From assembly GCF_026683955.1 (NCBI RefSeq), contig NZ_CP113343.1, positions 4,526,001 through 4,590,000 on the forward strand: 64,000 bases of DNA, given 5' to 3'. The notes beneath the pieces are model-generated. The model did not search any database, had not been told where the DNA came from, and worked only from the letters and a program-made list of their open reading frames with translations. Below, piece after piece: positions 239 through 48,865 of this stretch (positions are counted from its first letter, which is position 1; each line of letters begins with the position of its first letter). Both the position numbers and the translations under genes were made by a program. This DNA is from Arthrobacter sp. MMS18-M83. Lineage in GTDB: Bacteria > Actinomycetota > Actinomycetes > Actinomycetales > Micrococcaceae.

Positions 239-1582
239 CTTGCCGCGCACCATTCCCAAGAGACGGTTGAAGATTCCCTCGCCGTCTTCGCCGATAGCAT
301 CGTGGTGGAAGTCCCCGGTGGTCCAGGCCTGCAGTCCGCGCACAGCGGCTGCGGTCTCCATGGATAGCTCGAAGTCCACATAGATGTCGTCGCGATACAC
401 CGCAGCCGCCACGGGTACCGTGTTCGCGGCCAGCCGGGCCACATCGTAAAGAGGTTTCCAGTCCTGCTTGCCGGCCAAACGGGCGGCCACGTCCTGCAAG
501 GGCACCAAGGCCGGATCCTGCTCGAAATACCAGGGGTAGACCATCTCGCCTGTCAGGAGCGGCTCCGCGGCCTCGGGCTGGAACTCCGGGAATTCCGCAA
601 GCACGCGCCAAGCCGCCCAGTCCGTGGCTTGCTCTTGGCCGTAGATGGCCTCGTGCAGGACCGCGTACAGGGGATTCGATGCCCGGGATACGAGTCCGTG
701 GACTTGCTCCAGGAAGGCGTCAGAAAGCCGCTCTCCATCCGCGGAGGGTACAAAGGCGTCCTCCAGGAGGGTGTGCAGGGCATCCACGCGGGTGTTCCCG
801 CCCAGGAACGATCCCACCAGTTGGAAGCGCTCCGCGGTCAGGCGCTCTCCACTGGGCAGCCGCTCCTTCGTGGCGTCCAGATGCCGCGCGATACGGGTCA
901 CCATCTCGCGGTCCTCCGGATACCAGGCGAAGTACTCCGCGTTCCGTTCCGCGACCCGCTGGAACGTGGCCCGGTAGACGCGCTCGGCCGGGCCGTCCAA
1001 CGGCGCAAGCCCTCCCGTGATGAGCACTTCGCGAAGGCCTTCCGGAGCGAAGGAAAGGTAGGTCAGTGCGCAGAAACCGCCGAAGCTCTGGCCAAGAACG
1101 GTCCACGGTTCCGAGCCCAAGGTTTTCCGGATGAGTTCGGCGTCAGCCACGATCGAGTCGGCCCGGAAATGCGCCAGGTAGTCTGCCTGAGCCTCGGCAT
1201 CGCCTCGGAGCGGCAGCGTGTTGCGGTCCGCTGGCGTGGACAGGCCCGTGCCGCGTTGGTCGAGCATCAGAATGCGGAAGCTTCTTGCGGCAGCCTTCAT
1301 CCAGCCGGACAAGGACGTGGTCCGCGTTCCGCGTCCGCCCGGTCCGCCTTGGAGGTAGAGCAACCACGGCAGCCGGGCCGCGTCCTCAGCCGGGTGCTCG
1401 GCGGAGACGAACTCCCGGGCGAAGACGGCGATCGTCTCCGCGGCGCCATCACCGGGAGCTTCGCTCCCGGAAGGCCAGTGGTCGAGGGGCACCGTGAAGA
1501 AATGTTCGGTGGTCCGGACGCCACGGAATTCGTGACGTGCCCGGATGGTGTGTGCCGCGTGGCCAGCCATGCGTTCAGCCAC
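233..1582 (-). CDS. Alpha/beta hydrolase, proline iminopeptidase-like (peptidase family S33)
   Basis: A 449-aa alpha/beta hydrolase. An oxyanion-region motif reads QGGPGGRG (HGGPG in classical prolyl aminopeptidases), and the nucleophile elbow GQSFGG holds the probable catalytic serine. A conserved LDQRGTG lies between them. Near the C-terminus DFHHDAIG carries the probable catalytic histidine. The family releases N-terminal proline or other residues from peptides in the cytoplasm; no signal peptide is seen. The start region overlaps the upstream acetyltransferase by 8 nt (1575-1582), so the two are probably co-transcribed and translationally coupled. Substrate is not predictable from sequence, so a general S33 hydrolase is the safe call. 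Confidence 0.85.
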   Translation of the reverse strand: MAERMAGHAAHTIRARHEFRGVRTTEHFFTVPLDHWPSGSEAPGDGAAETIAVFAREFVSAEHPAEDAARLPWLLYLQGGPGGRGTRTTSLSGWMKAAARSFRILMLDQRGTGLSTPADRNTLPLRGDAEAQADYLAHFRADSIVADAELIRKTLGSEPWTVLGQSFGGFCALTYLSFAPEGLREVLITGGLAPLDGPAERVYRATFQRVAERNAEYFAWYPEDREMVTRIARHLDATKERLPSGERLTAERFQLVGSFLGGNTRVDALHTLLEDAFVPSADGERLSDAFLEQVHGLVSRASNPLYAVLHEAIYGQEQATDWAAWRVLAEFPEFQPEAAEPLLTGEMVYPWYFEQDPALVPLQDVAARLAGKQDWKPLYDVARLAANTVPVAAAVYRDDIYVDFELSMETAAAVRGLQAWTTGDFHHDAIGEDGEGIFNRLLGMVRGKS

Positions 1583-43169: not shown

Positions 43170-43221
43170 GTACGACGACGGCCGGTCACCTTCCCTGGAA
43201 GGTGACCGGCCGTCGTCGTAC
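43170..43221. terminator. Perfect 25-bp inverted repeat after the suf operon
   Basis: Arms 43170-43194 and 43197-43221 are perfectly complementary with only CT between them. It starts 17 nt after the sufT stop. The long GC-rich stem should end suf transcription strongly even though no U tract follows. Confidence 0.8.
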
Positions 43222-43307
43222 CCTCGTCGAGTGCGCTTAAGGCTGGGCCACGCCGAAACTTGTGGCGTCACAGAAAGCCGCGAACCCGCGCCAGAGGCTA
43301 AAATTCG

Positions 43308-45941
43308 ATGATGCCTTTTCTGGACAAACTTCAGCTCTGGGCCGATGAACGCCCTGACGACGCCGCCGTCGTCGTGGGCGGCAAACGGCTCAACTGGGCA
43401 GACCTTCGAGACGCCGCTACCTTGCGTCTGGAAGAGACTGCCGAGACGACGATACTCGCCGAGCCCAATTCCCTGGACTTCGTGGTGGCCTACGCGGCCG
43501 CCGTGGCGGGCGGACGGTGCTGCGCCGTGCTCGACCCTCTCTGGCCGCAGACCATGATCGATGAGGTCGCCCAGGGGATTGGACAAGCCGGGCCCGCCCA
43601 AGCGTCGGCTATCGGCCGGGAGCTTGCCGACGGCGACGAGCTGGCCGACGGCCATCCCGACACCACATTCCTGGTCGGCCTGACCTCTGGAACCACGTCC
43701 GTCCCCAAAGCCTTCACTCGTTCACGGCGCTCGTGGCAGGTCTCGTTCGAGGCCTCCATCGAATTTTTCGGCCTGACTCCCGAGGACAAAACGCTGGCCC
43801 CCGGTCCGCTGGCCGCGAGCTTGAACCTCTATGCCCTGTCCGAGTGCCTCTATGCCGGGGCGGCCTTCCATACCCTGGAGACCTTCGACGTCGGCGACGC
43901 TCACGCAGCCATCAGCCACGACGGCATTACCCGCCTGGTCTTGGCGCCCACCATGCTGCGCCTCTTGAGCGAGCGCGGGCTGGCTGGAGGAGTGGACGCG
44001 TCGGGGGTGCGGAGCATCATCTGCGCGGGCTCGAAGCTCGACGCCCGCACGTTGGAGGCCGCCAGGCGGTGGGCGCCGAATGCGGCAATCTTCGAGTATT
44101 ACGGAGCTTCGGAACTCAGTTTCGTTTCCGGAACGCGCCTTTCTGCAGGGGAGCTCCTTGACCCGGGGGGCACCGGCATCGGCGGGCCGTTTCCCGGCGT
44201 CGAACTCAAGATCATGGATGACGACGGCGCGGAGCAGCCCGAAGGGACCGACGGCAACATCTGTGTCCGCAGTGGGATGGTGAGCAACGGATACCTGTGG
44301 GGCGACGACGGGCAGGCGCTGCGCTGCTTTGACGGTTGGTACACGGTGGGGGACCAGGGCTACATGGATGCCGGAGTCCTGCATATCCTTGGCCGTCGAT
44401 CGGACATGATCATCACGTCAGGGAAGAACGTCTATCCCCACGAGGTGGAGCTTGCCCTGGCATCGGTCCCCGGAGTTTCTGCCGCCGTCGCTGCGGGAAT
44501 GGTCGACGACATTCGTGGCCAGCGGGTCGTGGCAGGAATCCTCCCCGCCTACGGCTCGGTGACGGCTACGCAGGTGAGGACGGGGCTGGATGGTTTGCTC
44601 GCCCGGGATAAGCGGCCCCTGCAGTACTTCACCTTGTCCGAATTGCCCGTGACGGACCGCGGAAAAGTCAGCCGGCAGATTCTGCTGGACTGGATTAAGA
44701 CAACGATCCCCGGGCGAAACCCCTTGCTTAGCCGCGGGCCGGGCACGGGCCTGGATCCCTCCCGCCAGCCCGTGATCATTGCCGCCCTGCGGACGCCGGT
44801 CTGCCGTGCCCACGGACAACTGAAGTCGCTCCGGGCCGAGGATCTCCTGGCTCCGGTCCTGCGTTCGTTGCTGACATCCACCGGGGTTTCCGCCTCGGAT
44901 GTCAGCGACGTCGTGATCGGCAATGCGGTAGGCGGTGGCGGCAACCTGGCCCGCTACGCCGCCCTGCAAGCGGGACTCCCGGTGGAGGTTCCCGGCCTGA
45001 CCGTGGACAGGCAGTGTGGTTCCGGGCTCGATGCCATCGCCTTGGCGTCGAGGCTGGTGGCCGCCGGCGGCAACGGAGTCTATTTGGCCGGGGGAGTGGA
45101 GAGCATCAGCACTGCACCACTGCGTGCCAGGCGGAATCCAGACCCCGACGGCGAACCGGACTTCTACACGCGCGCCACTTTTGTGCCGCCCGGGTTCGGG
45201 GACCCGGATATGGGCGTGGCTGCGGAGAACGTGGCACGGAAGTGTGGCATCAGCCGCCAACGACAGGACGATTTCGCGTTGCGCAGCCATCAGCGCGCCG
45301 TCGCCGCCAGCGTAGCCGGCGCGTTCGTCCCGGAAATTGTTCCCTTGGAAGCAGGGGGTGCCGTGGTCCAAGCCGACGACGGTCCCCGGGCATCGCTGAG
45401 GCCCGGACTCATGGCGCGCTTTCCGGCCGCGTTCGTGCCGGGCGGCACTGTAACAGCCGGAAACTCGTGCTTCGACGCTGACGCGGCCTCCGCCGTCGTG
45501 ATCACTTCACTGCAGCGGGCCCGGCAATTTGGCGCCGCCGACGGCCTGCTCGTGCTGGGGTGCGATACCGCAGGGGTGGATCCGGAACTGCTGGGTATCG
45601 GCGCTTCGGTGGCGGCCAAACGATTGCTGGCTGGGCTTGAGATTGAGCCGAAGAAACTCGACCTAGTGGAATTCAACGAGGCATTTGCCTCGCAGGCCCT
45701 CGCTTGCCTTGACGCGCTGGGTGTGGACCCGGAGCGGGCGAACCTCGACGGCGGGGCCCTGGCGCTGGGGCACGGCTATGGTGCGTCGGGGGCGGTTTTG
45801 GTCACGCGAATTCTGGCGCAAGCCCGCCGGATTGCCGAAGAGCAGCCAGGCCGGGAGAGCCTGGCGCTGGCGATGATCAGCATCGCAGGTGGAATGGGTA
45901 CGGCGGCGATGTTCCGGTACGCCCTTCTGCAGGGAGCCTAG
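43308..45941 (+). CDS. Fused acyl-CoA ligase and thiolase beside the biotin transporter
   Basis: 877 aa in one frame. Residues 1-~475 are an AMP-forming acyl-CoA synthetase: P-loop LTSGTTSVPKAF, EYYGASE, GDQGYMDAGVLHILGRRSDM (20 residues), SGKNVYPHEVE, and the A10 Lys in VTDRGKVSRQ. Residues ~485-877 are a complete thiolase: nucleophile Cys570 in RQCGSG, NEAFA at 790, and His822 in ALGHGYGASG. The second catalytic Cys is Ser858 (ISIAGGMG). In B. subtilis the separate genes yhfT (ligase) and yhfS (thiolase) form an operon with the bioY-type gene yhfU under BirA, so this is probably the fused equivalent, perhaps acting on pimelate-like acids. TAAAAT (43299-43304) lies 3 nt before ATG 43308 and 6 nt before ATG 43311. 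The stop shares CTAG with bioN. Confidence 0.9.
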   Translation: MMPFLDKLQLWADERPDDAAVVVGGKRLNWADLRDAATLRLEETAETTILAEPNSLDFVVAYAAAVAGGRCCAVLDPLWPQTMIDEVAQGIGQAGPAQASAIGRELADGDELADGHPDTTFLVGLTSGTTSVPKAFTRSRRSWQVSFEASIEFFGLTPEDKTLAPGPLAASLNLYALSECLYAGAAFHTLETFDVGDAHAAISHDGITRLVLAPTMLRLLSERGLAGGVDASGVRSIICAGSKLDARTLEAARRWAPNAAIFEYYGASELSFVSGTRLSAGELLDPGGTGIGGPFPGVELKIMDDDGAEQPEGTDGNICVRSGMVSNGYLWGDDGQALRCFDGWYTVGDQGYMDAGVLHILGRRSDMIITSGKNVYPHEVELALASVPGVSAAVAAGMVDDIRGQRVVAGILPAYGSVTATQVRTGLDGLLARDKRPLQYFTLSELPVTDRGKVSRQILLDWIKTTIPGRNPLLSRGPGTGLDPSRQPVIIAALRTPVCRAHGQLKSLRAEDLLAPVLRSLLTSTGVSASDVSDVVIGNAVGGGGNLARYAALQAGLPVEVPGLTVDRQCGSGLDAIALASRLVAAGGNGVYLAGGVESISTAPLRARRNPDPDGEPDFYTRATFVPPGFGDPDMGVAAENVARKCGISRQRQDDFALRSHQRAVAASVAGAFVPEIVPLEAGGAVVQADDGPRASLRPGLMARFPAAFVPGGTVTAGNSCFDADAASAVVITSLQRARQFGAADGLLVLGCDTAGVDPELLGIGASVAAKRLLAGLEIEPKKLDLVEFNEAFASQALACLDALGVDPERANLDGGALALGHGYGASGAVLVTRILAQARRIAEEQPGRESLALAMISIAGGMGTAAMFRYALLQGA

Positions 45942-46561
45942 TCCTCCGCGTCGCCCAGGCCGCGCGCCGCCAGGGCATCGCCGGTCTGCCGCGCATAAGC
46001 CACGGTGGTGATGAACACCGGAAGGACCAGGGCGCGGGGATTGCGTTCCAGCCCCCGCGCGCGGGCCGAGTCGCGGACATCGGAGAATGCGCCGGCGATG
46101 AACGGAAGGCTGCGCAGCATGATGGCTATGGTCAGCGCAAAGCGCTCCGGGTCTGCCCCGAAACGCTTGAACGGCTTGGACAGTGCCACTACTCCGTCCA
46201 GCAATGCCTGCACCGGAGTCGTGGCCGTGAGGACGGACGAGGCGACCACGCAGACGAGCACATTGAGGACGATCCGCGCAGCGACAGGGCCGCCCAACTG
46301 CCACCATTGGAACGCGCCGATAACAAGAAGGATGGGCGTCACCAGCCACACGGAATGCACGAGGCGTTTGAACCCTGCACCGCTCAAGAGGAAGAACCCG
46401 CACATCACGGCCAGGACCACCGCCGAGACGAGCCAGTCGACAATCAGGAACGATGCCAAGCCGCAGCCCGCTACCAGCAGGAACTTCAGCCACAAGGGCG
46501 TGCGGTGGACGATCGAGTCACCCCGCACATAGTTGGGGATCAGGATCCCGCAGCCCGTCAC
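45938..46561 (-). CDS. bioN: Biotin ECF transporter transmembrane protein BioN (EcfT-like)
   Basis: About 207 aa from GTG 46561, which overlaps the bioM stop (GTGA). Membrane helices are followed by the two coupling-helix motifs, SARARGLERN and ALAARGLGD, whose Ala-Arg-Gly triplets contact the ATPase. It links the ATPase to the biotin-binding BioY. The shared CTAG at 45938-45941 is the stop of both this gene and the convergent ligase-thiolase gene. Confidence 0.92.
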   Translation of the reverse strand: MTGCGILIPNYVRGDSIVHRTPLWLKFLLVAGCGLASFLIVDWLVSAVVLAVMCGFFLLSGAGFKRLVHSVWLVTPILLVIGAFQWWQLGGPVAARIVLNVLVCVVASSVLTATTPVQALLDGVVALSKPFKRFGADPERFALTIAIMLRSLPFIAGAFSDVRDSARARGLERNPRALVLPVFITTVAYARQTGDALAARGLGDAED

Positions 46562-47310
46562 GTCGTCCGCACCTTGCCGTTGAGGGATTCGGGTTCCGCT
46601 GGCGCGACCGCCTCGGCGCACAGCGCACGGTAGTGTTCGACGGCGTCGGCTGCTCCGCCGTCGAACACTATCCGTCCGCCGTCCACCACCAGGGCGCGCT
46701 CCGCTTCCAGCGCGAGGTCGAGATCATGGGTGGACATGATGATTTGCTGCTCGAGGCCCGCAAGCGTGCGCCGGAGCAACTCCCGATTGCGGAGGTCCAA
46801 CAGCGTTGATGGCTCATCGAGAACCAGGACAGCAGGATTCACCGCGAGGACGGCGGCGAGGGCGAGCAATTGGCGTTCTCCACCGGAGAGTTCGTAGATG
46901 CTCTGATCGGCGAGATTCAGGAGGCCGAACCGGTCCAGGACAGCTTCGGCCCGGGCCGCACGCTCCTTGGAGTTCTTGATCGAACGCCGCAATGACAATT
47001 CAACATCTTCCCGGCCCGTCGGCATGACAAGCTGCGACAAAGGATCGGTGAAGACGAAACCCACTTGGCTGCGGACGTGGCGAACGTCTCCCACGCTGTC
47101 CGCGCCGTTGACGGCGACGGCACCTTCGCTCGGAGCCACCAAACCGTTGAGCAAGCGCAGCAAAGTGGATTTTCCCGAGCCATTGGCGCCAATGACAGCG
47201 ATCCTCTGCTCGGTAAGTTCCAACGAGACGTCCTGCAGCAAGGTCTTGGGCGTGGGGCTGCCATCGACGGCAACACGCACGGAGACTTCGCTCAGAATGA
47301 TGGTGTTCAT
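46558..47310 (-). CDS. bioM: Biotin ECF transporter ATPase BioM
   Basis: 250 aa. Walker [13 protein letters not shown]-loop FVFTDPLSQL, signature ELSGGERQLLAL, Walker B LVLDEPSTLLD, H-loop MSTHDLDLAL. The FVFTDP Q-loop (no Gln in the usual spot, Gln in the following SQL) is typical of ECF ATPases. It powers biotin uptake by BioY. Confidence 0.93.
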   Translation of the reverse strand: MNTIILSEVSVRVAVDGSPTPKTLLQDVSLELTEQRIAVIGANGSGKSTLLRLLNGLVAPSEGAVAVNGADSVGDVRHVRSQVGFVFTDPLSQLVMPTGREDVELSLRRSIKNSKERAARAEAVLDRFGLLNLADQSIYELSGGERQLLALAAVLAVNPAVLVLDEPSTLLDLRNRELLRRTLAGLEQQIIMSTHDLDLALEAERALVVDGGRIVFDGGAADAVEHYRALCAEAVAPAEPESLNGKVRTT

Positions 47311-47328
47311 GTACCGATTGTTCCCGCT

Positions 47329-47943
47329 CTATTTGACGCGGCGGACCAGGATGTCCGGGAATGCCTTGTGGAGGGCGACGGCGATGATCGCGGCAAGGAT
47401 GTTCTTGATGGTGTCGCCGGGGTAGTAGGGCAGATCGGCCAGGAATGCCTTGGCGAAGTCGAACTTGCCATTGACCATGAAGCCAAGCACGCCGAGGCCG
47501 TGGATGAGGATAATGGTGCTGACCATGGCCGCTGCGAACAGGAGCACTGCACGGTACTTGACGGTCTTGCGAATCACTCGAGCCGCGAGCCAGCCGGCAG
47601 CAGCGGCAGCCAGCGGGAAGGCGATGATGTAACCGGCTGATGGTGTGGCCAAGATGCCAAGTCCGCTACGGCCTCCGCTGAAGATCGGCAGTCCAGCGAA
47701 ACCCAGCAGGGTATAGAGCCCGACGGCGGCAAAGGCCCGGCCGCTGCCGAGCACGAGGCCGGTCAGCAACACGGCAAGCGTCTGCAGAGTGATCGGGACA
47801 CCCAGGGCGCCGACCGGGATGCCAGGAATCATGGTGGACGCGGCCACCAAGGCCGCGAATACCGCGATGAGGCCGATGTCAGTAGACGTCCAGCGGGTAC
47901 GGGGGGAGGTTCGTCGCGTAGCCGCGGTTTCGGTGCTGCTCAT
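47329..47943 (-). CDS. bioY: Biotin transporter substrate-binding subunit BioY
   Basis: 204 aa with six membrane helices. GVPITLQTLAVLLTGLVLG is the BioY signature, followed by GLYTLLGFAGLPIFSGGRSG and PSAGYIIAFPLAA. The C-terminal PYYPGDTIKNILAAIIAV contains the conserved Asp-Lys pair for biotin binding. First gene of the leftward bioY-bioM-bioN operon. AGGA lies before the ATG. I saw no clear BirA or BioQ operator. Confidence 0.95.
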   Translation of the reverse strand: MSSTETAATRRTSPRTRWTSTDIGLIAVFAALVAASTMIPGIPVGALGVPITLQTLAVLLTGLVLGSGRAFAAVGLYTLLGFAGLPIFSGGRSGLGILATPSAGYIIAFPLAAAAAGWLAARVIRKTVKYRAVLLFAAAMVSTIILIHGLGVLGFMVNGKFDFAKAFLADLPYYPGDTIKNILAAIIAVALHKAFPDILVRRVK

Positions 47944-48103
47944 GGTGTGTCCTGTCTAATGCCTGGGGCCGAATGAATCCCCTGAAACCGACACTACAGA
48001 GCAGCCGGATACGGCATTTTGTAGGGTGTCCACGAGCAGCGCTGCAAGGCCTTGGGGCCAAGGTACAAAGGATGGCGCTGTTTGCGGCCTGAGCCGCTCT
48101 TGG

Positions 48104-48865
48104 CTAAGCCTCGACGTCCTCTTCCGTTGGGGTGAAGCCCGCGCGGTCCACCTTGCGGTGGTAATGCATGCCGGCCAGTCCGCCCACTACCGCAGCGACG
48201 AGGGTCACTGCTGCCACCACTACGGCGGCGATGATCCCGGTTGCGCTCAACTGTCCCTCATTCAGGGGAATCCTCGGGAAGCTGTTCACGTTGGCGAGGA
48301 TATTGAACCGCTGTCCGGCGACCATGCCCAGCAATGCGACGAGGACGGCCACAATAATTGCCCAAAGCCAGACCATGAACCCCTGTCTGACGCCGTTGAA
48401 CCGGGCCATTCGTCCGGCAACGTAGCCGCCACAATAATAGGAAACGAACAGGATCACCAAGAGCGAGATGATCCCTGCGATCCCTACAGGCTGAGATGCC
48501 CCTAGATTCACCGCATCACTGACGTTTGCGTTGTTTGCAAGTCCAACAGCAATCCCCGCCGCTGCGAGAAGGGCCACCAGTAGCACGGCCATCCCGGTTG
48601 CAGTCAGCCAGCCGAAGAAGGCGGAGCCAATCTTGATTCCGCCGAAGCGTTCTTTCTCGCGGGCAATAACGGTCTCACGGGTGGCTGCACGTGGGTCCGA
48701 AGCGGCGGGAACAACTGGATAGCTGCTCGTGTCGTCAACGTAGCCAGGGTTGTTTCCACGTACATCGTCAACGGCGTCACGCCGTGGTTCGACGGCGTCC
48801 GGGATTCCATCCTGGCCGCGGTTGCCTCGGACGTGCTTGCCGTCGGATCCTGTTGCACTGCTCAT
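48104..48865 (-). CDS. Unrecognised four-helix membrane protein
   Basis: About 253 aa from ATG 48865, which has GGGAGG upstream; a longer frame to 48949 lacks one. The first ~90 residues are hydrophilic and acidic/polar, with SYPVVP and a basic block KERFGGIKIG just before the membrane. Then come four hydrophobic helices, the second containing SYYCGGYVAGRMARF, a pattern seen in TIGR04086/YrzE-like small membrane proteins, and a short acidic tail. Function is not known. It stands alone between bioY and the ABC-F gene. Confidence 0.75.
   Translation of the reverse strand: MSSATGSDGKHVRGNRGQDGIPDAVEPRRDAVDDVRGNNPGYVDDTSSYPVVPAASDPRAATRETVIAREKERFGGIKIGSAFFGWLTATGMAVLLVALLAAAGIAVGLANNANVSDAVNLGASQPVGIAGIISLLVILFVSYYCGGYVAGRMARFNGVRQGFMVWLWAIIVAVLVALLGMVAGQRFNILANVNSFPRIPLNEGQLSATGIIAAVVVAAVTLVAAVVGGLAGMHYHRKVDRAGFTPTEEDVEA

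Follow-up and report, generated by a model that had tools for sequence, protein, structure and literature searches.

Why would genes for an acyl coenzyme A (CoA) ligase and a thiolase lie against the genes of a biotin importer? The question is raised by a 64,000-nucleotide stretch (hereafter the window; C1:4526001-4590000) of the 5.1-Mb genome of Arthrobacter sp. MMS18-M83, in which one open frame of 877 amino acids on the forward strand (positions 43308 to 45941), with ligase and thiolase domains, faces bioY, bioM, and bioN. An initial annotation of this DNA had described a ligase-thiolase fusion with a real link to biotin. We find that adjacent ligase and thiolase genes are bound to bioY and bioMN in Actinomycetota and in some Pseudomonadota, and that the link is both real and wide.

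Association of the ligase-thiolase pair with the biotin importer

When 394 genomes of the window's class were searched, 91 contained a match among those listed (E ≤ 1e-60), and 62 of the matching places were retrieved and examined; 44 of these hold the thiolase type of the window and 18 hold ordinary thiolases. With the window's own genome added, the carriers number at least 45 of 394, which is a lower bound. bioY was present on the examined stretch in 43 of the 44 places, belonging to 10 family groups, whereas it was found beside none of the 18 examined ordinary thiolases, a difference that bears out the claimed link to biotin. The 43 places are not independent, since a single family (f27) supplies 19 of them.

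The link between pair and importer survives several gene orders. The order bioY-ligase-thiolase-bioM-bioN occurs in 20 of the 43 places (one with a second ligase after bioN) and bioY-ligase-thiolase-bioN, in which no bioM was found, in 19; bioM-bioN-bioY-ligase-thiolase is seen twice, and bioY-thiolase-bioM-bioN-ligase and the convergent arrangement of the window once each. The sole exception among the 44 is a genome of the window's own genus (L126), with no bioY on the examined stretch. In another genome (L037), bioY lies about 34 kb from the pair, on a contig of the same number, and by this comparison the link in L126 is probably just stretched.

Closer relatives were collected by scanning one genome per species and keeping the best 80 of 533, which comprise 79 Micrococcaceae loci and one metagenome-assembled genome (MAG) of the Rhodospirillales (L009 to L088). 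bioN, bioM, and bioY are encoded on the opposite strand in 71 of the 79 Micrococcaceae loci, and in 66 of those 71 the bioN match ends at most 300 bases from the thiolase frame. One further locus runs into a contig end after a partial bioN, and seven have no bioYMN on the examined DNA; these seven genomes and the Rhodospirillales MAG all (8/8) carry bioY with bioM and bioN elsewhere in the genome. In the Rhodospirillales MAG, a gene for 3-hydroxyacyl-CoA dehydrogenase (L087, 4910 to 5842) directly precedes the ligase and thiolase genes.

The 41 operon loci were also searched for additional recurring genes, and clusters beyond bioY, bioM, bioN, ligase, and thiolase reached at most 16 loci. The two clusters of 16 loci were taken as frames antisense to the thiolase gene and to bioN, and the next four (13, 12, 9, and 8 loci) came, as far as read, from family f27. 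No beta-oxidation enzyme was recognized by eye among ten cluster representatives drawn from this crude gene calling.

Relationships and catalytic residues of the two enzymes

A quick tree of 77 thiolases was built from 41 operon members, 11 Micrococcaceae rows, and the Rhodospirillales copy, set against 24 other thiolases (17 from control places, L165, the second thiolase of L161, and five paralogs from the window's genome). It took in ten of the 80 genome loci; the window-genome thiolases L007 and L008 and two more were left out, and L193 and L194 were assigned to the clade by sequence and residues rather than by the tree. The branch separating the 53 clade rows from the 24 others has a Shimodaira-Hasegawa-like approximate likelihood ratio test (SH-aLRT) value of 100.

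Residues are numbered according to the Zoogloea thiolase; PDB titles give the names Cys89 and Asn316, and the other positions of interest are His348, Cys378, and Ser247. In the alignment, Cys89 and His348 are kept in all 53 clade rows, whereas none of them has Cys378 of the CxG motif (37 Ala, 15 Ser, 1 Gly), a residue found in all 24 other thiolases; Asn316 remains in 17 rows and is lost in 36. Position 247 is occupied by Cys in 46 rows and by Ser in 7; of the 24 other thiolases, 2 have Cys there. In ten more members, read by eye (nine from plasmids, and G330), Gly stands at the Cys378 position. The window's thiolase half follows the clade, with equivalents of Cys89 and His348, Ser for Cys378, and Cys for Ser247. 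Since Cys89 and His348 are kept and Cys378 is lost, the clade does not consist of standard thiolases: the acyl-enzyme side is retained and the usual base is gone. Position 247 is presumably where the pantetheine end of the substrate should lie, and the acid/base cysteine has perhaps been relocated there.

The thiolase part was modeled with AlphaFold (405 amino acids, 21 sequences); the model has a mean predicted local distance difference test (pLDDT) score of 87.3 and a predicted template modeling (pTM) score of 0.90, and its model-normalized template modeling (TM) scores against solved thiolases are 0.83 to 0.89 in the 50 rows shown, so that this half is predicted to adopt the thiolase fold. 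Of the complete thiolase described earlier, the predicted fold stands, but the second catalytic cysteine is missing.

These residues bear on the possibility that the ligase makes biotinyl-CoA and that the thiolase-like enzyme, having no Claisen ability, moves the biotinyl group from Cys89 to an acceptor, for storage or to help biotin protein ligase. Retention of Cys89 and His348 in every row, with Cys378 always and Asn316 mostly lost, would leave acyl-enzyme chemistry in place and damage enolate chemistry, and such a system would work in biotin auxotrophs. Against it, the lost base may be supplied anew by the Cys that most rows have at position 247, all 45 carriers possess biotin protein ligase, so that no need for the transfer is shown, and we know of no acceptor for biotinyl transfer by a thiolase-like enzyme. 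We consider this role unlikely.

In the ligase tree, the Micrococcaceae type is set apart from the main actinobacterial types, with two other ligases between them. A single origin of the ligase partners was therefore not supported, as these two fall inside the group. The solved structures of ligase relatives were uninformative about the substrate.

Biotin genes in carrier genomes

bioB exceeded the model cut-off in 11 of the 45 carriers and was absent by this measure from 34, compared with 185 of 349 other sample genomes that have it; the deficit has a Fisher P value of 0.0004, not corrected for kinship. bioA exceeded the cut-off in 10 carriers and not in 35, and both genes did so in 10. Biotin protein ligase (birA_ligase over the cut-off) was found in 45 of 45 carriers, and a replacement of this enzyme by the pair was accordingly rejected as stated. 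Because all carriers retain biotin protein ligase, in the majority that are without bioB and bioA over the cut-offs the biotin ring should already be present in what is imported.

The window's own genome is among those with a synthesis locus, in which bioB, bsaP, bioA, a bioF-like gene, bioD, and a cytochrome P450 gene stand in a row (L192, 6696 to 12282; C1 at about 1860700 to 1866300); the bioF-like gene scores below its cut-off (358.9 of 426 bits). The P450 after bioD recalls BioI and could be the source of the pimelate part in bacteria of the Arthrobacter type. This locus and the ten carriers with both bioA and bioB would suit the role put forward in the initial annotation, in which the pair activates a dicarboxylic acid and trims it to a pimelate-like precursor, as would the control of the pair by BirA in Bacillus subtilis and Staphylococcus aureus (PMC6391492, PMC7235819, PMC11089781). 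However, the lack of bioB or bioA in most carriers argues against a pimelate-precursor role in those genomes, bioB is rarer in carriers than elsewhere in the sample, and the pair sits with import genes rather than with synthesis genes. As a general role, precursor supply is therefore disfavored, and we regard it as quite improbable.

Organization of the Arthrobacter locus and the fused frame

Pfam profiles place an AMP-binding domain at residues 111 to 330 of the 877-amino-acid frame (profile positions 155 to 384 of 384, the first 110 or so residues lying under no Pfam match), AMP-binding_C at 379 to 453 (both ligase matches over the cut-off), Thiolase_N at 489 to 734, and Thiolase_C at 751 to 869. 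The translated ligase half contains TSGTTSVPK and DRGKVSR, which we take to be the TSGTTxxPK loop and the C-terminal lysine motif of AMP-forming acyl-CoA ligases. On the reverse strand follow bioN (45938 to 46621), for the T component of an energy-coupling factor (ECF) transporter with a match to CbiQ, bioM (46558 to 47310), for the ECF ATPase with a match to ABC_tran, and bioY (47329 to 47943), for the biotin-binding S component (Pfam BioY, PF02632). The three adjoin on one strand, as in a BioYMN transporter arrangement. The fused frame converges on them; its stop codon and the one of bioN overlap within CTAG (45938 to 45941), as the initial annotation had noted.

The fusion itself fared differently. 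One frame does span both enzymes in the window, but ligase and thiolase domains share a frame in 0 of the 80 relatives, and no shared frame was found in 60 further regions (L126 to L185) either. An alignment of the junction in 15 relatives shows that the ligase stops before or within the start of the thiolase, which is read in a different frame, and that the window has one A fewer than these relatives between positions 44699 and 44700. Because of this missing base, the TAG that ends the relatives' ligase, at 44729 to 44731 in the window, is out of frame there; the window's alternative frame still preserves the relatives' ligase end, NDPRAKPLA followed by a stop. The layout of close relatives would accordingly give a ligase stretch at 43308 to 44731 and a thiolase-like gene at 44724 to 45941, starting at TTG 44724 and overlapping the ligase stop by 8 nucleotides, an overlap seen in 47 of 78 loci. 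Both the TTG and the TAG are kept in the window, the missing A lies about 25 nucleotides upstream, and the junction is otherwise intact. As nothing else has been lost, fused or separate reading should yield the same two activities.

The fusion is unique to the window sequence among the 81 compared and is no family trait, and the missing A is either a real indel or a sequencing or assembly error. Fusion as a functional trait was rejected on the count of relatives given above, and it would be wrong to cite it as typical of the family.

Upstream of the frame, a -10-like hexamer, TAAAAT (43299 to 43304, forward strand), ends 3 nucleotides 5' of the first ATG. In the upstream-region alignment this placement before the start codon (43299 to 43308) is common to close relatives too, and it suggests a possible leaderless transcript of the fused frame. 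Positions 43171 to 43220, which lie between the fused frame and a gene cluster judged by eye to be of suf type, form a perfect inverted repeat with 22-bp arms and a 6-base loop; a similar repeat occurs in several close relatives, and it has the appearance of a terminator or hairpin. Beyond the window by about 12 kb, at C1:4602073-4603364, a thiolase-like gene is matched in two frames, one of which has an internal stop, and it is either a pseudogene or another indel.

Plasmid-borne pairs in Alphaproteobacteria

A search of plasmids returned 123 records (111 from Rhizobium, 5 from Azospirillum, 4 from Sinorhizobium, 2 from Streptantibioticus, and 1 from Shinella), nine of which were opened. Six of the nine, from Streptantibioticus, Shinella, Azospirillum (two), and Sinorhizobium (two), have the order bioM-bioN-bioY-ligase-thiolase; five of these are alphaproteobacterial, and Streptantibioticus is an actinomycete. 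The remaining three, all from Rhizobium (L205, L206, and L212), have the order thioesterase-ligase-thiolase without bioY and with a zinc-type dehydrogenase gene alongside. A thioesterase gene adjoins the pair in these three and in one annotated Sinorhizobium plasmid, and Pfam 4HBT matched for two of these. The zinc-type dehydrogenase was not identified as an enoyl reductase; together, the 4HBT-type thioesterase and the dehydrogenase would fit release and reduction steps in the side-chain repair proposed below.

In both Azospirillum plasmids (L207 and L211), a major facilitator superfamily (MFS) transporter gene directly follows the thiolase gene, with a match to PF05977 in L211. On pSymB of Sinorhizobium meliloti Ak57 (L209, 4501 to 6002), the frame of the ligase does not reach the length that it has in Sinorhizobium sp. 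C101 (L210), and the gene table, which is incomplete, has no entry at this place; the ligase of this strain is possibly broken.

Regulation of the pair

In reporter strains of S. aureus, the yhfS-yhfT promoter is repressed by BirA with biotin (PMC6391492), BirA controls both yhfS-yhfT and bioY in this species (PMC6391492, PMC7235819), and a review states the same control for B. subtilis and S. aureus (PMC11089781). Biotin-dependent repression fits a role in supply and not in breakdown. It is of the wrong sense for a catabolic role, in which the pair would cut back the side chain of imported biotin to degrade it, or of biotin-like antibiotics to disarm them, and most examined carriers, being without biotin synthesis genes, should need outside biotin. 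A ligase with a thiolase does follow beta-oxidation logic, and soil streptomycetes make biotin antimetabolites (PMC13336041); on balance, breakdown appears very improbable.

Repression at plentiful biotin (PMC6391492) would also suit a biotin-sparing function, in which a shortage of biotin leaves acetyl-CoA carboxylase short and the pair uses outside fatty acids or builds acyl chains without malonyl-CoA. The ligase resembles fatty-acid and other acyl-CoA ligases, and such a function would operate in biotin auxotrophs as well. It leaves unexplained, however, why the pair is linked to the importer instead of to fatty-acid genes, no other recurring beta-oxidation gene was recognized in the operons, and the absence of Cys378 from all 53 rows should harm a chain-building thiolase. 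We therefore hold this explanation to be improbable.

For the window, alignments with up to 30 relatives showed by eye no common site in the regions upstream of the fused frame and of bioY. A presumed BioQ pattern gave no exact match in the window and 38 matches with at most two mismatches (25.8 expected; largest count 37 in 100 shuffles). The one-mismatch matches are at 1734, 21047, 28496, and 38391, none near the fused frame or bioY, and the nearest two-mismatch matches are at 43346, inside the ligase, and at 48232, beyond the bioY start. Upstream of bioY, an element at about 48013 to 48071, with TTTGT... and CTACAAAAT on the bioY strand, is partly conserved across Micrococcaceae bioY upstream regions and may be an operator or promoter.

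Relation to known systems

Among equivalog models, NF005212 matches the thiolase half best and NF005797 the ligase half; the two presumably correspond to YhfS and YhfT, and both halves score below the curated cut-offs (313.3 of 498 bits and 217.8 of 518 bits, respectively). Like YhfT and YhfS of the BirA regulon in B. subtilis and S. aureus, the present genes encode a ligase and a thiolase-like protein tied to bioY; unlike them, they come from another phylum, and the comparison was made through models rather than with the YhfS and YhfT sequences. The parallel drawn in the initial annotation is upheld in part, by the best models and by the reported BirA control, but not at the level of the model scores.

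SMc00965 and SMc00966, downstream of bioB (BioY) in S. meliloti, are similar in their joint expression with bioY: in a NolR study by RNA sequencing, bioB changed by -3.28, SMc00965 (AMP-binding) by -2.61, and SMc00966 (thiolase) by -2.20 log2 units, the three transcripts being lower together in the nolR+ strain (PMC12445080). The order bioM-bioN-bioY-ligase-thiolase is found in two Sinorhizobium plasmids. The S. meliloti system differs in its control by NolR (PMC12445080), in the thioesterase alongside, and in Gly at the Cys378 position of the Sinorhizobium loci, where the window has Ser. Corynebacterium glutamicum likewise keeps bioY, bioM, and bioN together; its operon is named bioYMN and, in the available text, is without the ligase-thiolase pair (PMC3398298). 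BioZ, a ketoacyl synthase III-like enzyme that starts biotin synthesis in Rhizobiales, is another member of the condensing-enzyme superfamily tied to biotin (PMC8024396), but it serves synthesis, whereas the present pair accompanies import genes and, among the examined carriers, occurs mainly in genomes without synthesis genes. With the classical thiolases of Zoogloea and Clostridium, the clade shares the predicted fold, Cys89, and His348; it differs in the absence of Cys378, in Cys mostly at the Ser247 position, and in the frequent loss of Asn316.

The association is thus already known in Bacillota and visible in the S. meliloti table (PMC12445080). The present analysis adds the breadth of the link, the loss of Cys378 throughout the clade together with Cys247 in most of its rows, and the tendency of carriers to be without bioB. 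The literature searched, in the parts available, gives no function for the pair, and the BirA-controlled yhfS-yhfT genes are called there only putative fatty-acid enzymes (PMC6391492, PMC7235819, PMC11089781).

A putative role in the use of imported biotin-like acids

Given the alternatives above, we tentatively favor, at somewhat below an even chance, the view that the pair is an accessory module of biotin import that makes imported biotin-like acids usable through CoA activation and acyl chemistry on the side chain. The salvage idea of the initial annotation is thereby the preferred reading. As the pair goes with the importer, and as most of the examined carriers should be unable to use pimelate, 7-keto-8-aminopelargonic acid (KAPA), or dethiobiotin, a substrate in which the biotin ring is already complete is the most likely one. 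BioYMN would import a vitamer with an intact ring and an unsuitable side chain, for example bisnorbiotin, a natural catabolite that arises from biotin by beta-oxidation. The ligase would convert its side-chain carboxylate to a CoA thioester, and the thiolase-like enzyme would load the acyl group on Cys89 and make or break a side-chain carbon-carbon bond, with the acid/base cysteine perhaps shifted to position 247. Housekeeping reductases and a thioesterase, the latter encoded next door in rhizobia, could complete the chain and pass free biotin to biotin protein ligase. Such a sequence, in which CoA activation precedes acyl chemistry on a thiolase-type cysteine, would fit the repair of side chains in biotin catabolites.

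Several points weigh against this reading. A normal Claisen reaction is doubtful, judging from the residues, where Cys378 is missing, and 7 of the 53 clade rows lack both Cys378 and Cys247. The structures solved among the relatives of the ligase are of enzymes for fatty acids, succinylbenzoate, chlorobenzoate, malonate, and oxalate, which give no pointer to biotin, and bisnorbiotin as the substrate would be a guess. By eye, no recurring hydroxyacyl-CoA dehydrogenase, hydratase, or enoyl reductase was recognized among the ten representatives from the crudely called actinobacterial operons. The pair lies away from bioY in the three Rhizobium plasmids opened of 111 records, and bioMNY is on a different contig from the pair in the Rhodospirillales MAG. 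No exact BioR-like box, by a presumed pattern, occurred in 212 loci, and none with one mismatch was found in L205, L209, and L212, the only loci tried.

A bolder form of the preferred reading is rather unlikely: that BioY import, CoA ester formation, and a thiolase with its base moved from position 378 to 247, which rebuilds the side chain, make up a widespread and undescribed vitamer salvage by which bacteria that do not synthesize biotin live on catabolites such as bisnorbiotin. The spread of the pair and the shared loss of a catalytic residue narrow the question to which imported acid needs CoA activation. If the substrate is a biotin catabolite, soil, plant-associated, and animal-associated bacteria would possess an unnoticed route of vitamin salvage, and the way in which genomes are read for biotin auxotrophy would change.

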